Assembly: GCA_002731275.1 (NCBI GenBank)
Contig: PCBK01000190.1
Span: forward strand, 1-64,000
Direction of reading: 5' to 3'
DNA from: Deltaproteobacteria bacterium
Lineage (GTDB): Bacteria; Myxococcota_C; UBA6777
Length of the DNA: 64,000 nucleotides
Below the pieces are notes generated by a model, which did not search any database, was not told where the DNA came from, and saw only the letters and a program-made list of their open reading frames with translations. Position numbers and translations under genes: made by a program. Below, one piece after another: positions 1,660 to 63,023 of the stretch (the stretch's first letter is position 1; every line of letters begins with the position of its first letter).

Positions 1660-2472
1660 CTATTCAGCATCTCGAAAATGTGCCAACAGATCGTGGTTGA
1701 TACGTTCGGTACATTGTCGAAGTAGACCATGACCGGCCTCTTCATACACATGAAAGCGTGCTTCTGGCAAGAGTTTGTAGAGTCGCTCACTCTCATTGGG
1801 TGGGATCAGGATGTCCTGTCCGGGTTTGACGATCATGGTGGGGAGCGTAAGCTGTGACAGTTGTTTTTGGGTGTTATGTGTCATCACAACGCGCACATGA
1901 GAGAGGACGGTGCTGAGAGGGACCTCGTGACCATACACACTTTCGAGGGCTTGGTGTTGTTCATCGCTCAACTCTTTAAGATAGTCAGGCGGAAAGAGGA
2001 TCGATTTGATCGCCTGCGCGCGGGTCTCGGGTTTGCCTGCCGTCGCGAGGCGTGGGAAGCGTTGAAACCACTTCCACGTAGGGATAGGACGCAAGAAACC
2101 TCCTGCGGTCGTCGCAAGTAACGACAAGGAGAGAAAGCGTTCGGGCATCATCAACGCCATGTGTTGAGAGATCATCCCTCCCATCGAGATACCGACGAGG
2201 TGCGCCTTGTCCCAGCCTAATTCATCCATAATATCGAGCGCATCATCGGCCATCTTGCGCATGTGATTCATGCCTTTGGGCACAGGTTGACTCTTCCCAA
2301 GACCATAGTGGTCAAAGAACGCGACCTGATGATGCTTAGAGAGGTGTTCGGCTTGTAGGGCCCAGGCGTGCCCGTGCATCCCCAGACCCATTACTAACAT
2401 GACAGGTGTACCGGATTCACCGAGCTTGTAGTACGCAAGCCCACGTTTTGATATCTGCGCTTCAGTCAACAT
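1660..2472 (-). CDS. Alpha/beta-fold hydrolase
   Basis: A 270-residue alpha/beta hydrolase. The nucleophile elbow GISMGG sits near residue 95, preceded by an oxyanion-loop region (VMGLGMHGHAW), and the distal catalytic His is in EEAGHGLL near the C-terminus. A conserved Asp is likely in the KPGQD segment. There is no signal peptide, so it is cytoplasmic. Being the promoter-proximal partner of menB, it could be a MenH-type enzyme, but MenH proteins usually carry a different elbow and the sequence is closer to generic AB-hydrolase-1 esterases. I therefore leave the symbol blank. The substrate cannot be read from the sequence. Confidence 0.85.
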   Translation of the reverse strand: MLTEAQISKRGLAYYKLGESGTPVMLVMGLGMHGHAWALQAEHLSKHHQVAFFDHYGLGKSQPVPKGMNHMRKMADDALDIMDELGWDKAHLVGISMGGMISQHMALMMPERFLSLSLLATTAGGFLRPIPTWKWFQRFPRLATAGKPETRAQAIKSILFPPDYLKELSDEQHQALESVYGHEVPLSTVLSHVRVVMTHNTQKQLSQLTLPTMIVKPGQDILIPPNESERLYKLLPEARFHVYEEAGHGLLRQCTERINHDLLAHFRDAE

Positions 2473-2635
2473 CTTTGTCTACGCTCCTCACTGTAGAAGA
2501 TGGCACATGCCACCCCAAATCAATCCTCTGCGAAGATAGAGTATCCACAAGTTCGTTGCAAACCAAACAACCTCTTTTTACAAATCCAAGACATCTCCCA
2601 CAAAAGCCCATCCAAAAAAAGCGCACGGGAGGGGC

Positions 2636-3160
2636 GTCAAAACACACAAGGGGGTCCAAAAGTGCATGAGAGGGGGGTACACTTTGCGGATGTGGGGTGC
2701 GAAATACGTAAGGGGGTCCGAAAATGCGTAAGGGGGTTCTCAAAATGCGTAAGGGGGGTTCGAAAGTGAACGAGAGGGGGGTACACTTTGCGGATGAGGG
2801 GGGTGCAAAGTGCGGATGAGGGGGGTGCAAAATACGTAAGGGGGGTTTGAAAGTGGACGAGAGGGTTCAGAGAGTGCAAGAAGGGGATCATCAAAGTGAA
2901 GATGGGCCTTGTTAAAGTGCAGATGGACCTCGTCAAAGTGCAGATGGACCTCGTCGGAGTCCCTGATCCAACCCTTCAGAGTGCAAGGAGACGTCACAAA
3001 AGTTCAAGGAGACGCCACAAAAGTGCAAGGAGACGTCACAAAAGTTCAAGGAGACCGCATCGGAGTGCAAGGAGCAAAGTATGGAGTGCAACAAGACCTC
3101 ATTTTTTGACGAAGGCAGATATCTTGAGTGCAACAAGAGAGTGGCGGTCTTTTCGCGAAG
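2636..3160. repeat. Degenerate array of about 21 units with a 19-24 bp period
   Basis: The units share a core close to AAAGTGC followed by a purine-rich stretch. They drift along the array: early units end in runs of five or six G (e.g. AAAGTGCGGATGAGGGGGG), middle units read AAAGTGCAGATGGACCTCG, and late units read AAAAGTGCAAGGAGACGTCAC. The common spacing is about two helical turns. The array fills most of the gap between the hydrolase promoter side and the DUF4365 cassette. Open frames on both strands here are by-products of the repeat and show no protein features. Confidence 0.75.
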
Positions 3161-3398
3161 TAAGCACAGTTATGATGACTTATTCCAGCGTCTTCTCATG
3201 CCTTGCCTGAGGCTTCATTAAGAGCCCTTTTTCGTGCGCTTTTTGCATCCAACAGCCTTCCCATGCCGAATAGGAAGTCAGGAGATCAAAAGTTACCTCA
3301 AAACATGCAAACCGTCAGATATTTTTGATTGTTCAATCCCCTGTTTTGTGGTAGCTTTCATGGTCTTCATACGATGGATCAGTTGGGGAGAGCAAATC

Positions 3399-53488: not shown

Positions 53489-56329
53489 CTACCAAGTCGG
53501 CTGCAACAAAGAGAGCGTCCCCACCTGAGCAGAAGAGATCCCCACTCCTTTGTCGAGGATCTTCAACTCCGCGGCTTTCAGCTTGTCAGGTGCGCCAATA
53601 GGCGTGATGATATACAATCTCGCCAATGACGCCATAGATCCGGACTTCGCGAGTCCCTCTAAGAAAGGTTTGCGCGCGCCAGCCTCACGAAAGTCAGGAT
53701 GAAGCGGCGCAAAAATCGAAAGCTCTGGCAATAACTCACACAGCTCTCCGACGCGCTCGAATTCATAGTTGTCCATTGGCCAATGGTATGTCCGCACACA
53801 CCGCTTTAACCCATCATGCATCATCTCGACCAACTCGATACAATCGGGGACCTGATAGCCATTGCCCGCATAATCTATCAACACGCCGGCGACGTGTAGA
53901 TCTTTGTTTGAGAGCAAACGCCGCGCGTCCTCTCTTGTAAGCTCATGGGGGAGCAGCACAAACGAAGCATACGCACGACTCATCACACCCGCTTCCATCA
54001 AGGTAAACATCGGTGTTTTGGTAGAAGATGAGTGTGTGTCGATCTGCACATGCACAGGGCGCGCGTTTGAAAGCCAAATTGCCAATGCTTCGTGTGTATG
54101 CTGATCCAGCATACTCGTACTGATCGTCATCCTGAGATGACGAAGTCGTCTCCAAGACGCAACCTGTGCTTGCAACCCCGACCAATCGTATCCGTCATCG
54201 TTGTATTCAAAGCGAAAATCCAACGCAAGCGAGACCACATGGTCCATCTCAACATGCGATAACATCGCCTCAAACACAGCAGGATCCGTGAGGCTTAATG
54301 TCACCTGCCGAGCCTCTAACGCCGAAACGTCGGACAGTGGCGTAACATCTCGGTGTGAAAAGCTATCTCGCGCCCCTTTGGGGTACAACCCCTTCCCCTT
54401 CAACGCAGTGATGGCCTGCTCTGCCGCACCACTGACCCAAGAGTGGAGATGACAGGATGTAGGTTGAACCGCCTCAAAAAACGACACGATCGCCGATTGT
54501 ATCGTTTTTTGCTTACCAAATGAGCCGAACGTCACATCCCGAATATTCTCGATCGCTGGCGCTTTTGCCAAACGTTCCAGCCAACGACTACCGTACTTCG
54601 GGTCATCCCCAAGGTGAGCGAGTTGGATGTGTATCGAACGGATGAGTCGCATTTTGGGGGAGGGTTTCTCCGCCAAAAAGTCACGCAGCCATTGATCAGG
54701 TAAGACTCGCTCCATGTCAGGCCATGCTTCGAGGTAGTCTTCGAGTTCTTTGATCGCCTCCTCAAATTCATCAGGTGGCAATTGCAGCTCAAGCCCATTG
54801 ACGACACCGACCAGTGTTTTCCAAGCCTGAAGGGATGGCTGCTCAAACATCATCGCGTCGTGGAGGTGAACTTTGTGTTGCTTGCGACGCTCTTCTTCAC
54901 CGGGAGCGACATCTTCATGGACCAAAAAGGACGTATTATCCGCCTGCATAGAGGATGATGTGTCTCCTCCAAACACCTCGACATCATGTTGACGTAAAAA
55001 CGCCACGACATCCGCATCAAATGATGGTGGGACGCGTAACTTCTCAAGTGTATCGAGTAACCCCGTCTCTACAAAGTTCTTCTCCGCAAACCGAAGTCCC
55101 GCAGCCCCACCCAAACTCGTCGAAGTGCAATGGCGCATATCCAACTCTTTTAACGGTACCTTAGCCAACTGTTGCAAAAAGTCCTCCCCCCCCGACATTC
55201 CGGAATAAATCTCCAAACTGTCCAAACGCAGATAGACCTTCTCCACACCACCCAAGATCACGGGGAGCAGGTGTTTCACCTCATCGAAAAACGCCTTGTC
55301 AGCACGCATGGGAACACTCAACGCGACCTCCTTCAAAGAAGGGAATTCGTCGATATGCTCGGCCAAGTAAGCGTACTGCTCAGGCTGATTTATCCCCACA
55401 CATTCGAGTTGCTTGGCCCACGGTCCAGAGAACAAGCGTGCGCCTTTATCGGCCTCTTTGAGGAGGTATGTTTCGCGTTTGAGATGAATGGCCTTTAGAG
55501 CAGGCAACGAGGTGGCTTTAAGGAGGAGATCAAACGCCCCTTCTGGTGCGCGACTCATCACCAACGTCTCGACATTCTGAAGGTTCGTTGCGGAAGCCAT
55601 CTTCTTGTAAAAGGACTTCTTCTTCTCAAATTGATCCGTCCACCAACCGACATCGAAGACCTTGATGTGACTGATAGATGGGTTGTCGAACACCTTCGCT
55701 GAGAGGGTGCTGTTGAGACCCGCGACGGTGAATGAGAGCGCCTGACAGAGCTTGTGTTTTTCGTGCTGTTCGCCGTTGACGACCTCCGCGAGCCACGTCT
55801 TTGTCAAACGCCTCTGTTCACCTGCACAATCTCCAAAGATCCCATCGTACATAAACTCCCACGAACCAATCCGCTCGCCTTCTTCGAGCCTCATACACGA
55901 CGGCCATGCTTCGATATGTGTCCTGACATATGCCAACAACTCGTCGATTTGTTCGGCCTCACACTCATCGATCAACGTGGAGAGTTCGTCCCAGATCGTC
56001 CGGCTCATGCCTTTCGCCAGCAACGCCCGAGCGTCCCCGATAATATAGTCAAAGGAGCGTTTGTTCGCGTCCTCATCGAACTCCAGCTCACCATTCTCCA
56101 AAAAGGTGTCGATCTGTTCGCCTTGTAAAACGACCAAACCCAATGACAGCGCTTTGTCGATCTTCTTTTGTGAAGCTCGCTCTCCAGCGAGAAATACGTC
56201 GATCTCTTTGTTGATAGAAAAGACAGAGTTCCCACCGGCTTTTGCAATAAAGTCGATGAGAGAGATTTTGGTGTGTCCTTTGATCTTTCCGGTGTAGAAA
56301 ACGTTCGATTTTTTGAGCTTGAGCTTCAT
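53489..56329 (-). CDS. BRCT domain plus LRR-like protein, related to the 45087 LRR protein
   Basis: 946 residues. Residues about 5-85 look like a BRCT domain (VFYTGKIKGHTKISLIDFI, AKAGGNSVFSINKEIDVFL, then KIDKALSLGLVVLQGEQI). Two copies of a helical module follow, one around residue 140 (IEAWPSCMR) and one around 536 (YLEAWPDMERV, then DQWLRDFL). The module is shared with the LRR protein at 45087-46667. Each copy precedes a stretch of irregular leucine-rich repeats (LKAIHLKRE, LKELDMRHC, LRHLRMTIS). It seems to have arisen by internal duplication. No signal peptide, so intracellular. BRCT domains in bacteria usually bind phosphopeptides or DNA ends, but the role here is unknown. Convergent with acs (27-bp gap). 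Confidence 0.65.
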   Translation of the reverse strand: MKLKLKKSNVFYTGKIKGHTKISLIDFIAKAGGNSVFSINKEIDVFLAGERASQKKIDKALSLGLVVLQGEQIDTFLENGELEFDEDANKRSFDYIIGDARALLAKGMSRTIWDELSTLIDECEAEQIDELLAYVRTHIEAWPSCMRLEEGERIGSWEFMYDGIFGDCAGEQRRLTKTWLAEVVNGEQHEKHKLCQALSFTVAGLNSTLSAKVFDNPSISHIKVFDVGWWTDQFEKKKSFYKKMASATNLQNVETLVMSRAPEGAFDLLLKATSLPALKAIHLKRETYLLKEADKGARLFSGPWAKQLECVGINQPEQYAYLAEHIDEFPSLKEVALSVPMRADKAFFDEVKHLLPVILGGVEKVYLRLDSLEIYSGMSGGEDFLQQLAKVPLKELDMRHCTSTSLGGAAGLRFAEKNFVETGLLDTLEKLRVPPSFDADVVAFLRQHDVEVFGGDTSSSMQADNTSFLVHEDVAPGEEERRKQHKVHLHDAMMFEQPSLQAWKTLVGVVNGLELQLPPDEFEEAIKELEDYLEAWPDMERVLPDQWLRDFLAEKPSPKMRLIRSIHIQLAHLGDDPKYGSRWLERLAKAPAIENIRDVTFGSFGKQKTIQSAIVSFFEAVQPTSCHLHSWVSGAAEQAITALKGKGLYPKGARDSFSHRDVTPLSDVSALEARQVTLSLTDPAVFEAMLSHVEMDHVVSLALDFRFEYNDDGYDWSGLQAQVASWRRLRHLRMTISTSMLDQHTHEALAIWLSNARPVHVQIDTHSSSTKTPMFTLMEAGVMSRAYASFVLLPHELTREDARRLLSNKDLHVAGVLIDYAGNGYQVPDCIELVEMMHDGLKRCVRTYHWPMDNYEFERVGELCELLPELSIFAPLHPDFREAGARKPFLEGLAKSGSMASLARLYIITPIGAPDKLKAAELKILDKGVGISSAQVGTLSLLQPTW

Positions 56330-57947: not shown

Positions 57948-58805
57948 TCAGGACATGTACTTGATAAATGGCTGGAAGATACCGGGGAAGTAGAGGGTAA
58001 AGTTTTCGCTGTCTTGCATCGCGAGGGTGTCGAGGGTGTAGCCTTGTTGGTTGTATGTCTTCACGATCTGCTTTCCAGTCTCATTCATCTTGTCGGACCA
58101 GATCTTGTTGGAGGACACGTCGTATTGCATCACGATCCCCCGCTTGCTCGTGGACATCAACGCCTGTCCGATCGTCCCTGGGAAGATCTCATCCCCTGTA
58201 GGTCGGGGATACGCGTACACCTTCTCTTCGTAAAGCTCCTGCTCGATGAATGTAAAACAGATCAACCCTTCGTCGACAAGATCGTACTCCAAGGTCTTCG
58301 CCTCATCGAGCAGTGAGCGTAAAGACGGCCTCTCCATCTTCGCAAAATCCAGAATACGAAAGTACACCTTAAAGTGATTGGCTTCAAAGTCCCAACCGAG
58401 CCCGTAGAACAAACTGTTGGGATCTTCGAGAAAGACCGACTCAACCTCCACGCCGCGCTCTTTGATCACATCGAGCGCTGGGACAAGCGCCTCGTGGGGC
58501 TGGGCCAATGAACCATACGCAAAACGCGATGAGTTCACCTTGTCCCCCTTCACCCTGTGGGAGTAGGTGTAATAGCTGTAATTCTCCTCCCCGGTCCCCT
58601 CATAGACGTCGTCGAAGAATGTCGCCATACGAAAGCAATGATCGAGATAGGTTAATTCGAGCTGTGTGAGCTTCTTGTCGAAGGGGTAAAATGTCTTCGA
58701 GTGCCACGCGAACAGGTCCCGATGCGCCCGCTCTGCACGCTTATTGAAGAATCCTTTGACGCCACTGAGCAGGCGCCCTGCCAGACCTTGTTTTTTCTCT
58801 GTCAT
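57948..58805 (-). CDS. Unknown protein encoded with two BpsA-like enzymes
   Basis: 285 residues. ATG 58805 overlaps the stop of the upstream BpsA-like gene (ATGA), so translation is coupled. The N-terminus is basic (KKQGLAGRLLSGVKGFFNKR) and may be an amphipathic helix. The rest is mixed alpha/beta with aromatic-rich segments (EENYSYYTYSHRVKG, GLGWDFEANHFKVYFRI, GLICFTFIEQELYEEK). No transmembrane helix, signal peptide or known motif. Obligate co-expression with the BpsA-like pair suggests a substrate-handling or partner role, inferred from operon structure only. Confidence 0.65.
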   Translation of the reverse strand: MTEKKQGLAGRLLSGVKGFFNKRAERAHRDLFAWHSKTFYPFDKKLTQLELTYLDHCFRMATFFDDVYEGTGEENYSYYTYSHRVKGDKVNSSRFAYGSLAQPHEALVPALDVIKERGVEVESVFLEDPNSLFYGLGWDFEANHFKVYFRILDFAKMERPSLRSLLDEAKTLEYDLVDEGLICFTFIEQELYEEKVYAYPRPTGDEIFPGTIGQALMSTSKRGIVMQYDVSSNKIWSDKMNETGKQIVKTYNQQGYTLDTLAMQDSENFTLYFPGIFQPFIKYMS

Positions 58806-60049
58806 TTTGCGCGATTCCACCACTTAAAGAACCATTTTTGGACGGGGTTGGGCTGAAAATACGGCAACCGCCTCAACACATATAGCTGTGAATGGACATA
58901 CGGCACGTGCCTGATAAAGTCCAACAACGTCGACTCCACGTCCGGCAACAACGCATCGAGACGCCCTGGCACCTCAGGCTGATCGTCCAAACTCAGGCTG
59001 TACAAGTTAAACGCCGTCTCGATCGAATCAAAGGTAAAACCGAGCTTTGTGAGGCGCTTTTGGAAACGATGCATCTTGCGCTGCTGATTCTCCAAATGGA
59101 GAGGACAAAAAGACATGTAAATGCGCGCATGGCGGTTGTCCTTCAAGCAGAACATCGCCTTCTCCAAAAAGCACCACAGACGATAGTATCCCCAAGGTGG
59201 ATCAAGCGCGACTGCATCGTACTGTTGGTACAACGCAGCGTCCACACCGTCAAACACGAAGTCCGCCTTGTGGCGATGTACGTTGGGCGACTTCTCACCG
59301 ATGAAGTCCAACAACCGGTCGTCCAGATCGACCATGTGTACTTCTCCCGAGAAACGCGGCGCGAGCACGACACTCACGAGGTCATCATCCCCCACAAACA
59401 ACACCTTGCTGTCTGGTGCGTCGAACTCCTGGATCATTCGGTCCGCCCGTCGCTGCGTCGAGTCCGCCGTACAATACAGCTGATCGTAGTCGATAATCGC
59501 CTGTGGTCGCTGCGCCAACAAATCCAATGTCTCATCCGTCACGTCGTTAAAGGACGTCGGCCGTTCGTACTCCAAACGCATCAAATACAAGACCGTCTCA
59601 CCGAGAAAACGAGGCATCATCTGCTTATCAAACTCAATGTCCTTCTTGCCCTCGATCCACACACACAGCCCAGAGATCTGGTCACGTAAAGAGTGGTAAT
59701 ACGACGCAAAGACCGAAGGCTCAACGAGAGGCCAGGTCGGCGGCAGTGGATTGCCCAAGAAGGAGAACAACTTGTACAAAAAGCTGCGGATCTGGTAGCG
59801 CGGGTTGTCAGGACTGAGTTCACCGAGCATGTCGACAAGAGCGGACTCCATCGGTTTGCTTTTGTCGAAGAACGCGAAGGCGTGGTTGGCCACAGACGAC
59901 TGCATGACGATCAGCTTTGACGGCTCCTCTTCGGTCTGCTCGACCTCGGTCTGTTCAACTTCGGTCTGTTCGACCTCGTGAAGCGCCTCGCTCTCATCCT
60001 CTGTTGGTGACTGTGTGTCGGAAGGCTCTTGTGGGGGTGTGGTGCTCAT
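58802..60049 (-). CDS. BpsA-like (branched polyamine synthase family) protein 1
   Basis: 415 residues from ATG 60049 (GGAG 11 nt upstream; the frame extends to 60256). An acidic Glu/Thr/Val repeat (EVEQTEVEQTE) and about 150 uncharacterised residues precede a Rossmann-type domain matching BpsA, N4-bis(aminopropyl)spermidine synthase. It has DYDQLYCTADSTQRRADRM, then KVLFVGDDDLVS near residue 220, VDLDDRLLDFIGE, and VALDPPWGYY near 280. The GDDD and DPP(Y/W) motifs define this family, which adds aminopropyl groups to polyamines using decarboxylated AdoMet. The usual family has DPPY; here DPPW. A second paralogue lies just upstream. Confidence 0.75.
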   Translation of the reverse strand: MSTTPPQEPSDTQSPTEDESEALHEVEQTEVEQTEVEQTEEEPSKLIVMQSSVANHAFAFFDKSKPMESALVDMLGELSPDNPRYQIRSFLYKLFSFLGNPLPPTWPLVEPSVFASYYHSLRDQISGLCVWIEGKKDIEFDKQMMPRFLGETVLYLMRLEYERPTSFNDVTDETLDLLAQRPQAIIDYDQLYCTADSTQRRADRMIQEFDAPDSKVLFVGDDDLVSVVLAPRFSGEVHMVDLDDRLLDFIGEKSPNVHRHKADFVFDGVDAALYQQYDAVALDPPWGYYRLWCFLEKAMFCLKDNRHARIYMSFCPLHLENQQRKMHRFQKRLTKLGFTFDSIETAFNLYSLSLDDQPEVPGRLDALLPDVESTLLDFIRHVPYVHSQLYVLRRLPYFQPNPVQKWFFKWWNRAK

Positions 60050-60161
60050 CAAATAAAACGCTCCATAAGGAAGGATCGTAGACAGCGCGACTTCCAATGG
60101 ATGAGGAAGACGTAGCCATAGAGACGGATAACGACCTATTGTGCGGACACAGAGGGGGATG

Positions 60162-61205
60162 TCAAGCGGAGTGCCACCATTCGAGGAGCCTGGAACGCAA
60201 GGCGCCCGGCTGTGCAGACGGATTCCAACGCAGCTCGTATAGATGAGAGAAGCCAAAGGGAACGTTCTTCAAGATGTTGAGCAGTGGCAACTCGATATCA
60301 GGGACAAAAGAGTGGACCATCTCCATAAACTCCGTCCCCTGTAAACTATACATGTGAAATCCAGGTGTGAGTTGATCGATCTGCAACCCCCATGACGCCA
60401 GACGTCGCTCAAAGACGTGCTTCTTGCGCTGCATATATTCGAGATAAAGGGGACAAAAGGACATAAAGATGCGCGCTTTCTCGCTCCGCTTGAGGCAAAT
60501 CATCGCCTTGTACAAAAAACACCACAAGTGATAGTGATCCCAAGGAGGATCGAGCACGACCGCATCGAATGTTCGCAGCAGTGATTTGGGGATCCCTCCC
60601 AAGAACAAGTCGATAGGTAACGTCGTGACGTCAGGCGCGCGTTCATGGACGTAATCGAGCAGACGTTGGTCAAGCTCGGCGACAAAGATCTCCCCCTCGA
60701 AACATCGGGACAACAACAGACTCCCGAGATCGTCATCTCCCAAAAACATCACCCGAGAGGCAGGTGTGACCCACTGTAAAACACGTTCAATGCGACGTTG
60801 AGAGGACTCAGGTGTGCAGTAGAGCTGGTCATAATCGAGGATCGCCTCAGGTCGATGTGCGACGAGCTCGACGGTCTGTGCAGAGGGCTGATGAAATTCA
60901 CGTGGATGTTCCCAGTCATGCTTCATCAAATACAGCGCACTCTCCCCCATCAAACGCAACGCCATGTGCATCCTCGGTGTCAGTGAACGCATACGATCTG
61001 CGGCGTCGTAGATCTCATTCACCCCATCGTAGAAAGCACGGTATAACCGGGCGTATTCCTTTACATCACACAGCGGCCACTCCAGAGGAATCTCACCCTC
61101 AAGGCAGCGAAATACGTCGTGCAAAAAAGGCCTGATCTGTTCACGAGGGTTGTGGGACCAAAGCTCCATAACCTCCGAGTTTTCTATGTGATTGGCGTGT
61201 GACAT
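60162..61205 (-). CDS. BpsA-like (branched polyamine synthase family) protein 2
   Basis: 347 residues from ATG 61205 (GGAG 6 nt upstream). Same architecture as the downstream paralogue without the acidic N-terminal tail: a helical N-terminal region of about 120 residues, DYDQLYCTPESSQRRIERVL, RVMFLGDDDLGS near residue 155, AELDQRLLDYVHERAPD, VVLDPPWDHYHLWCFL near 219, and a conserved ARIFMSFCPLYLE segment. First gene of the operon; the next gene begins 112 bp later. Two diverged copies in tandem suggest two sequential or heteromeric activities. Chemistry beyond the family is inferred. Confidence 0.75.
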   Translation of the reverse strand: MSHANHIENSEVMELWSHNPREQIRPFLHDVFRCLEGEIPLEWPLCDVKEYARLYRAFYDGVNEIYDAADRMRSLTPRMHMALRLMGESALYLMKHDWEHPREFHQPSAQTVELVAHRPEAILDYDQLYCTPESSQRRIERVLQWVTPASRVMFLGDDDLGSLLLSRCFEGEIFVAELDQRLLDYVHERAPDVTTLPIDLFLGGIPKSLLRTFDAVVLDPPWDHYHLWCFLYKAMICLKRSEKARIFMSFCPLYLEYMQRKKHVFERRLASWGLQIDQLTPGFHMYSLQGTEFMEMVHSFVPDIELPLLNILKNVPFGFSHLYELRWNPSAQPGALRSRLLEWWHSA

Positions 61206-62382: not shown

Positions 62383-62961
62383 TCAAAAAAGCCAGGGGAC
62401 AAAGCGCTTCGTACGCTTCATATATTCCGCATAAGCCGGTCCAAAATGTTCGAGGAGCATACGCTCCTCGCGCTCGACACGGATGCCGATCATCAACCCT
62501 GCCCCGAGCAAAAAGAGCAACAATCCCCACAACGAACGCACCGCGATCATCATCCCAATCACCTCCAAAAATGTCCCTGTATACGAAGGATGCCGAATAT
62601 ACGCATAGACACCTTCTTGGTGAAGTGTATGTTGTTCGCGGATACACAAAACGTAGGTGAACTCATCGCCGAGGCTGCGGATCGCAAAGGCACGAAACCA
62701 CGTCCCAAAGAGGGAGATCGTCACGCCGATCGAGAGTGCCCATGTCGATGGGAGCATCTGTAGAGGTGGTGTAAAGTAAGGGAGCAAGAGAGAGAGGAAC
62801 CACAGGAGTCCCATGGCCTGGATGATCCAGGCAAACTCCTTCTCACCAACAGGGATGGTGTCGCTATCACGGGGAGACTTCTCCTCGGCGTTCCAGATCC
62901 CGTAGATGTAGAGGCAGAGCAAGAAGGTGTAGATTCCGAGCGGAAGGGGTTGTAGAAACAT
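62383..62961 (-). CDS. Isoprenylcysteine carboxyl methyltransferase (ICMT/PEMT)-like membrane protein
   Basis: 192 residues with about five transmembrane helices. The C-terminal ICMT-type signature is present: GVYAYIRHPSYTG, then a hydrophobic hairpin, RVEREERMLLEHFGPAYAEY and KRFVPWLF. These bind AdoMet in the eukaryotic enzymes. Bacterial members methylate small or lipid substrates that are mostly unknown. TTG 62964 is an alternative start adjacent to ATG 62961. Confidence 0.85.
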   Translation of the reverse strand: MFLQPLPLGIYTFLLCLYIYGIWNAEEKSPRDSDTIPVGEKEFAWIIQAMGLLWFLSLLLPYFTPPLQMLPSTWALSIGVTISLFGTWFRAFAIRSLGDEFTYVLCIREQHTLHQEGVYAYIRHPSYTGTFLEVIGMMIAVRSLWGLLLFLLGAGLMIGIRVEREERMLLEHFGPAYAEYMKRTKRFVPWLF

Positions 62962-63023
62962 CAACTATCTCGAAGGGAAAGAGGAAGGAGAGCAGCCCCA
63001 CTTTCGCGGGGAGAGGTGGTGGT

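Follow-up and report, generated by a model that had tools for sequence, protein, structure and literature searches.

Tail-less BpsA-like proteins and a predicted PT-barrel protein in one operon of a Myxococcota genome

In the window, i.e. the whole 64,000-nt stretch of contig PCBK01000190.1 whose positions are used as coordinates here, we found three minus-strand open reading frames forming an operon: P1 (347 aa), P2 (415 aa, counted from the ATG) and P3 (285 aa). It is extremely likely that P1 and P2 belong to the BpsA_C superfamily, that of the N4-bis(aminopropyl)spermidine synthase BpsA (EC 2.5.1.128), which builds branched polyamines in Thermococcus kodakarensis and Thermus thermophilus, and that P3 has the PT-barrel (ABBA) prenyltransferase fold. 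Judged by their sequences, P1 and P2 resemble aminopropyltransferases in the donor site, though not BpsA proper. The operon comprises known kinds of enzymes, in a new variant and in a combination for which a search of open-licence papers gave no description, whether of this operon or of any natural-product gene cluster pairing an aminopropyltransferase with a prenyltransferase.

Results

Structure of the operon

The features of the operon are as follows (Tk-BpsA, the BpsA of T. kodakarensis; DMATS and PatF, known PT-barrel proteins).

60162..61205, minus strand: P1, BpsA-like protein; BpsA_C domain at 60336-60875
60729..60740, minus strand: GDDD of P1, the donor site, equivalent to Asp159/Asp160 of Tk-BpsA
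60540..60551, minus strand: DPPW of P1, its Asp aligned with Tk-BpsA Asp225
60447-60464, minus strand: MSFCPL of P1
58802..60049, minus strand: P2, BpsA-like protein; BpsA_C domain at 58997-59527
59381..59392, minus strand: GDDD of P2
59192..59203, minus strand: DPPW of P2
59099-59116, minus strand: MSFCPL of P2
59921..59977, minus strand: N-terminal Glu-rich repeat of P2, EVEQTEVEQTEVEQTEEEP, kept in only some orthologues
57948..58805, minus strand: P3, predicted PT-barrel (ABBA) prenyltransferase fold (AlphaFold2 model)
58521..58532, minus strand: SSRF of P3 with Arg94, proposed counterpart of PatF Arg66 and DMATS Arg100
58386..58397, minus strand: GWDF of P3 with Asp139, proposed counterpart of DMATS Asp178
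58359..58373, minus strand: FKVYF of P3 with Lys146, proposed counterpart of DMATS Lys187

The first-pass annotation of this DNA had described a tandem of proteins with GDDD and DPPW motifs and a common MSFCPL segment, and a third gene overlapping by 4 nt. All three motifs were located in both P1 and P2, and the P2/P3 overlap is real (ATGA, in the sequence ...AAAATGACAG...). The gap between P1 and P2 is about 112 nt, hence translational coupling is apparent for P2 and P3 only. The N-terminal extension of P2 is acidic and repetitive.

P1 and P2 as members of the BpsA_C superfamily

Both proteins scored far above the curated Pfam cut-off for BpsA_C (PF01861, 27 bits), at 65.0 bits for P1 and 77.7 bits for P2, as the first-pass annotation had expected. 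In an alignment of 13 homologues from four genomes 33 columns are invariant, including GDDD, DP.W, DQL.C and CP, and the observation is therefore far from chance. The AlphaFold2 model of P1 (mean predicted local distance difference test score, pLDDT, 88.7) is closest to BpsA structures: the six entries of the BpsA family all rank at the top of its fold matches (Z 20.5-23.3), the best being 6j27_C (Z 23.3 over 250 residues), with Z 21.4 for 5xnc. Assignment to an unrelated methyltransferase family, which would have spoken against the initial proposal, did not occur. A defence system was considered and set aside: in a PADLOC search P1 had one weak match (mad2, 20 bits), located in its methyltransferase-like core, and P2 and P3 had none.

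Given this membership, P1 and/or P2 could produce N4-aminopropylspermidine as true branched-chain polyamine synthases, in a host that is not a thermophile. The roles of the relevant residues are known for Tk-BpsA (PMC12979288), where the GDDD aspartates hold the aminopropyl group of the donor, and an acidic C-terminal tail carries this group in a relay mechanism. The counterparts of Asp159, Asp160, Asp225 and Tyr290 are conserved in 13/13 members and, along with the PF01861 domain and the catalytic fold, are shared with BpsA. The acidic carrier cluster, however, is absent from the window-family proteins: we counted 0-3 acidic residues among the last 25, compared to 4-8 in seven canonical relatives. 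Moreover, the Tyr316 position is not retained, the N-terminal region and the DPP motif (DPPW) are different, the window family forms a separate clade (support 100/99), and there are several diverged paralogues (2-4) per genome, in hosts with no sign of thermophily. With a defining feature of BpsA tested and missing, we did not file P1 and P2 as BpsA. The true-synthase alternative seems very improbable. We considered the Glu-rich repeat of P2 as a substitute carrier and rejected it, since one orthologue lacks it and so does P1.

Two distinctions drawn by the first-pass annotation were wrong or incomplete. Although P1 and P2 have DPPW where DPPY had been expected, DPPY-type variants are common throughout the superfamily. 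BpsA is described as confined to thermophiles (PMC12979288, a 2026 review). By contrast, Clostridium, Brevibacillus and Erysipelothrix are among the mesophile genera that carry PF01861 genes with GDDD.

In the main rival explanation, P1 and P2 are members of the same Rossmann superfamily that act as ordinary methyltransferases, dependent on S-adenosylmethionine (AdoMet), with P3 prenylating the methylated product. DPPW resembles motif IV of amino-group methyltransferases, and relatives carry DPPE or DPPY; the best non-BpsA enzyme for the P1 model is METTL5 (Z 18.5); the carrier tail is missing; and a gene of an ICMT-type methyltransferase lies nearby. On the other hand, GDDD is invariant both in 13/13 members and in the sister clade, and all methyltransferase structures score clearly below the BpsA structures. 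The third argument against this rival comes from proteins in which the BpsA_C domain is fused to a C-terminal AdoMet decarboxylase, found in Erysipelothrix, Patescibacteria, WWE3, Dysgonomonadaceae and Clostridia (L091 7647-8957; L110 7671-8993; L125 7680-8993; L120 7659-8969; L079 7593-9224; L101 2648-4189). Like P1 and P2, these proteins come from non-thermophiles and have PF01861 with GDDD (GEDE in one fusion), but the window family is unfused and falls in another clade, whereas in the fusions a single chain combines the making of the donor with the transfer step. Their presence in several mesophiles supports decarboxylated AdoMet as the donor superfamily-wide. We consider it unlikely that P1 and P2 are ordinary methyltransferases, and slightly favour the reading that they perform aminopropyl chemistry.

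The predicted fold of P3

The third protein had been assigned to an unknown family. This stands at the level of sequence, where neither Pfam nor NCBIfam has a family that fits P3, and does not stand at the level of predicted structure. The AlphaFold model, built from six sequences (pLDDT 84.5; predicted template modelling score 0.83), consists of five beta hairpins alternating with helices, that is, a PT-barrel closest to the cyanobactin peptide prenyltransferases. The first 18 Foldseek matches (E <= 1e-3) are all prenyltransferases of the LynF/TruF/PatF family, the best being PagF (E 8.7e-8). In VIA-align comparisons this family yielded Z 17.1-20.1, with KgpF at the top (8ye0_A; Z 20.1, root-mean-square deviation 3.1, 242 residues), followed by PagF (19.1), LimF (19.0) and DciF (17.9), compared to Z 14-16 for bacterial indole prenyltransferases. 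P3 is also similar to the cyanobactin F enzymes in length, the common barrel spanning about 240 residues.

In DMATS the set binding dimethylallyl diphosphate (DMAPP) is Arg100, Asp178 and Lys187 (PMC3668578). When seven F-family sequences were aligned for comparison with P3, their invariant Arg56, Asp114 and Lys125 paired with Arg94, Asp139 and Lys146 of P3 in an end-to-end profile alignment of 0.2% probability, so that this correspondence is supportive but not independent proof. The paired residues fall in the same hairpins, the first two, as in the P3 model. Arg94, Lys146, Lys195 and Gln227 are kept in five of the six P3 homologues, and Asp139 in all six.

Alternatively, P3 could be a PT-barrel protein without prenyltransferase activity, either an inactive PatF-like scaffold or a partner of P2 with other chemistry. 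PatF provides the precedent, as it has the PT-barrel fold and yet is apparently inactive (PMC3668578). Further, profile-profile and hidden Markov model comparisons of P3 with the F prenyltransferases were not significant, and shuffled decoys scored as high; hence the homology of P3 to prenyltransferases rests on the predicted fold. None of the six P3 homologues matched TIGR04445, the NCBIfam profile of the LynF/TruF/PatF peptide prenyltransferases, nor did this family match in the five genomes described below, and P3 differs from the cyanobactin F genes also in being coupled to a BpsA-like gene with no cyanobactin genes around. At the same time, the inactive PatF lacks two of the three Arg/Asp/Lys residues (PMC3668578), whereas the diphosphate-site equivalents are kept in 5/6 homologues, including all three P3 proteins linked to P2. 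We thus regard a non-prenyltransferase P3 as doubtful, and prenyl transfer by P3, as suggested by the model, as fairly probable.

Other sequence matches were discarded: FAM118B in a PDB profile search (E 0.7) is due to chance, and LcrR and WYL, each matched by one P3 homologue, are weak (E about 0.02).

Three P3 paralogues are distant from BpsA-like genes (L046 1429-2250 in G001:C225; L047 1510-2424 in G003:C88; L048 1468-2268 in G000:C178). Two of them have a serine/threonine kinase gene on one side and a Cys-rich lipoprotein gene on the other, and in the L048 paralogue the proposed diphosphate site no longer has its Arg and Lys.

Phylogeny and distribution

The comparison set comprised five genomes, G000-G004, of one family in one small Myxococcota class, G000 (10.75 Mb) being the genome of the window. 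Window-type BpsA_C genes were present in four of them (G000, n = 4; G001, n = 2; G003, n = 4; G004, n = 3) and absent from G002. A PF01861 tree of 86 sequences placed the Eremiobacterota-type proteins in one clade with the window family (21 rows, support 100/99); canonical BpsA (40 rows) and a group mostly of Bacillota (17 rows) fell outside it. The sister clade, with proteins of Eremiobacterota (Vulcanimicrobiota) and the metagenome-assembled genome BWSM_10, also lacks the acidic tail; it differs from the window family in having DPPY or DPPN, other gene neighbours and no P3. In three genomes the Eremiobacterota-type genes have as neighbour a protein (L056 4630-5808, L061 4563-5759, L058 5715-7484) whose VDAHLD motif recalls ureohydrolases. 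A scan of IMG/VR revealed no viral relatives of P1 or P2.

Within the window family the tree supports P1-type (G000, G001, G003, G004), P2-type (G000, G003, G004) and a third type (G001, G003, G004). The P2-type orthologues (L033 16937-18205; L036 7360-8514) each lie beside a P3 gene, so that P3 adjoins P2-type genes in G000, G003 and G004, all three genomes having either; among the five genomes, G002 has neither. In G003 the P2-type gene and P3 are separated by a GNAT acetyltransferase gene that overlaps each of them by 4 nt. The three-gene order proposed at first therefore recurs in part: the P2-P3 pair is found in relatives, but P1-type and P2-type genes are adjacent only in the genome of the window. 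A P1-P2 heteromer or sequential pair, also suggested then, is no conserved rule, as elsewhere P1-type genes pair with the third type (in tandem in G003 and G004) and P2-type genes with P3.

Upstream of the third-type gene in G003 (L033 7349-7693) and G001 (L038 12206-12532) there is a putative lipoprotein of 108-114 aa, very basic and Cys-containing, 54% identical between the two genomes. An ICMT-type methyltransferase gene adjoins the BpsA-like cluster in G000, G001 and G004. Features of the window outside the operon are:

62383..62964, minus strand: ICMT/PEMT-type membrane methyltransferase (PF04140, 64 bits; neighbour map), of uncertain membership in the pathway
53489-56329, minus strand: 946-aa protein, possibly leucine-rich-repeat-like

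Supply of the donor

G000, G002 and G004 have an AdoMet decarboxylase of family PF02675 (SpeD), whereas none was detected in G001 or G003. The latter two have instead the eukaryote-type PF01536 enzyme (G001:C368:12972-13730, L161 7772-8734, 205.6 bits; G003:C10:191133-191927, L160 7130-8059, 192.7 bits), which was not found in G000, G002 or G004. This is a non-homologous replacement within one family, with the bacterial type PF02675 missing from the Myxococcota genus concerned, and since PF01536 occurs in exactly these two genomes, the missing PF02675 was rejected as evidence against the donor. As all five genomes have a decarboxylase of either unrelated type, each probably makes decarboxylated AdoMet. 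In G003 the PF01536 gene directly follows speA, the gene of the biosynthetic arginine decarboxylase; no classical SpeE was found there, only long spermine-synthase-like proteins, an absence that is weak given that the genome is 86% complete.

In the genome of the window, an AdoMet decarboxylase domain is carried by the 302-aa product of L042 1456-2364 (G000:C106), upstream of speE (2419-3264). The C-terminal part of this product resembles pyruvoyl-dependent arginine decarboxylase, and it may be a double-decarboxylase fusion.

Discussion

We propose the following scheme. P1 and P2 would be PF01861 aminopropyltransferases binding decarboxylated AdoMet at the GDDD/DPPW site. Given the absence of the acidic carrier tail, P2, and perhaps P1, would most likely pass the aminopropyl group straight to its acceptor, an amine other than spermidine N4. 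P3, coupled to P2, would most likely transfer a prenyl group, from DMAPP or geranyl diphosphate, to the same acceptor or its product, and in G003 the GNAT acetyltransferase would add a further step. The operon would thereby make or decorate a specialised amine- or peptide-type compound bearing aminopropyl and prenyl groups. The unusual substrate or product suggested at first is probable, in the sense of a non-standard substrate. For the scheme as a whole, in which donors, acceptor and product as well as the sequence of the reactions are all inferred, we put the chances at a little below even.

Several points weigh against this scheme. Apart from the lost Tyr316, the nearly invariant Glu near the position of Tk-BpsA Glu259 is aligned with an ambiguity of two residues. 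To this should be added the non-significant sequence comparisons of P3, the decoys, the limited force of its residue correspondence and the precedent of PatF; a shared fold shows no function. Inspection of the operon, including the P1-P2 gap and the 36 nt after P3, revealed no precursor of a ribosomally synthesised and post-translationally modified peptide and no other scaffold enzyme. Finally, G002 has an AdoMet decarboxylase and zero BpsA-like genes, hence the supply of the donor is permissive, not specific.

The broadest claim, that in one Myxococcota class tail-less BpsA-type aminopropyltransferases and a new family of PT-barrel prenyltransferases make an aminopropylated, prenylated metabolite, is a tentative one that we hold to be possible rather than likely. 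If true, BpsA-type chemistry would be used outside polyamine elongation and outside thermophiles. A tail-less branch in a lineage without signs of thermophily also tests whether the aminopropyl relay is essential to enzymes of this kind or a later addition. The P3 family, apparently invisible to sequence libraries, would extend the set of enzymes valued for prenyl attachment, and the pairing of BpsA-like and PT-barrel proteins offers a small, concrete operon for expression.

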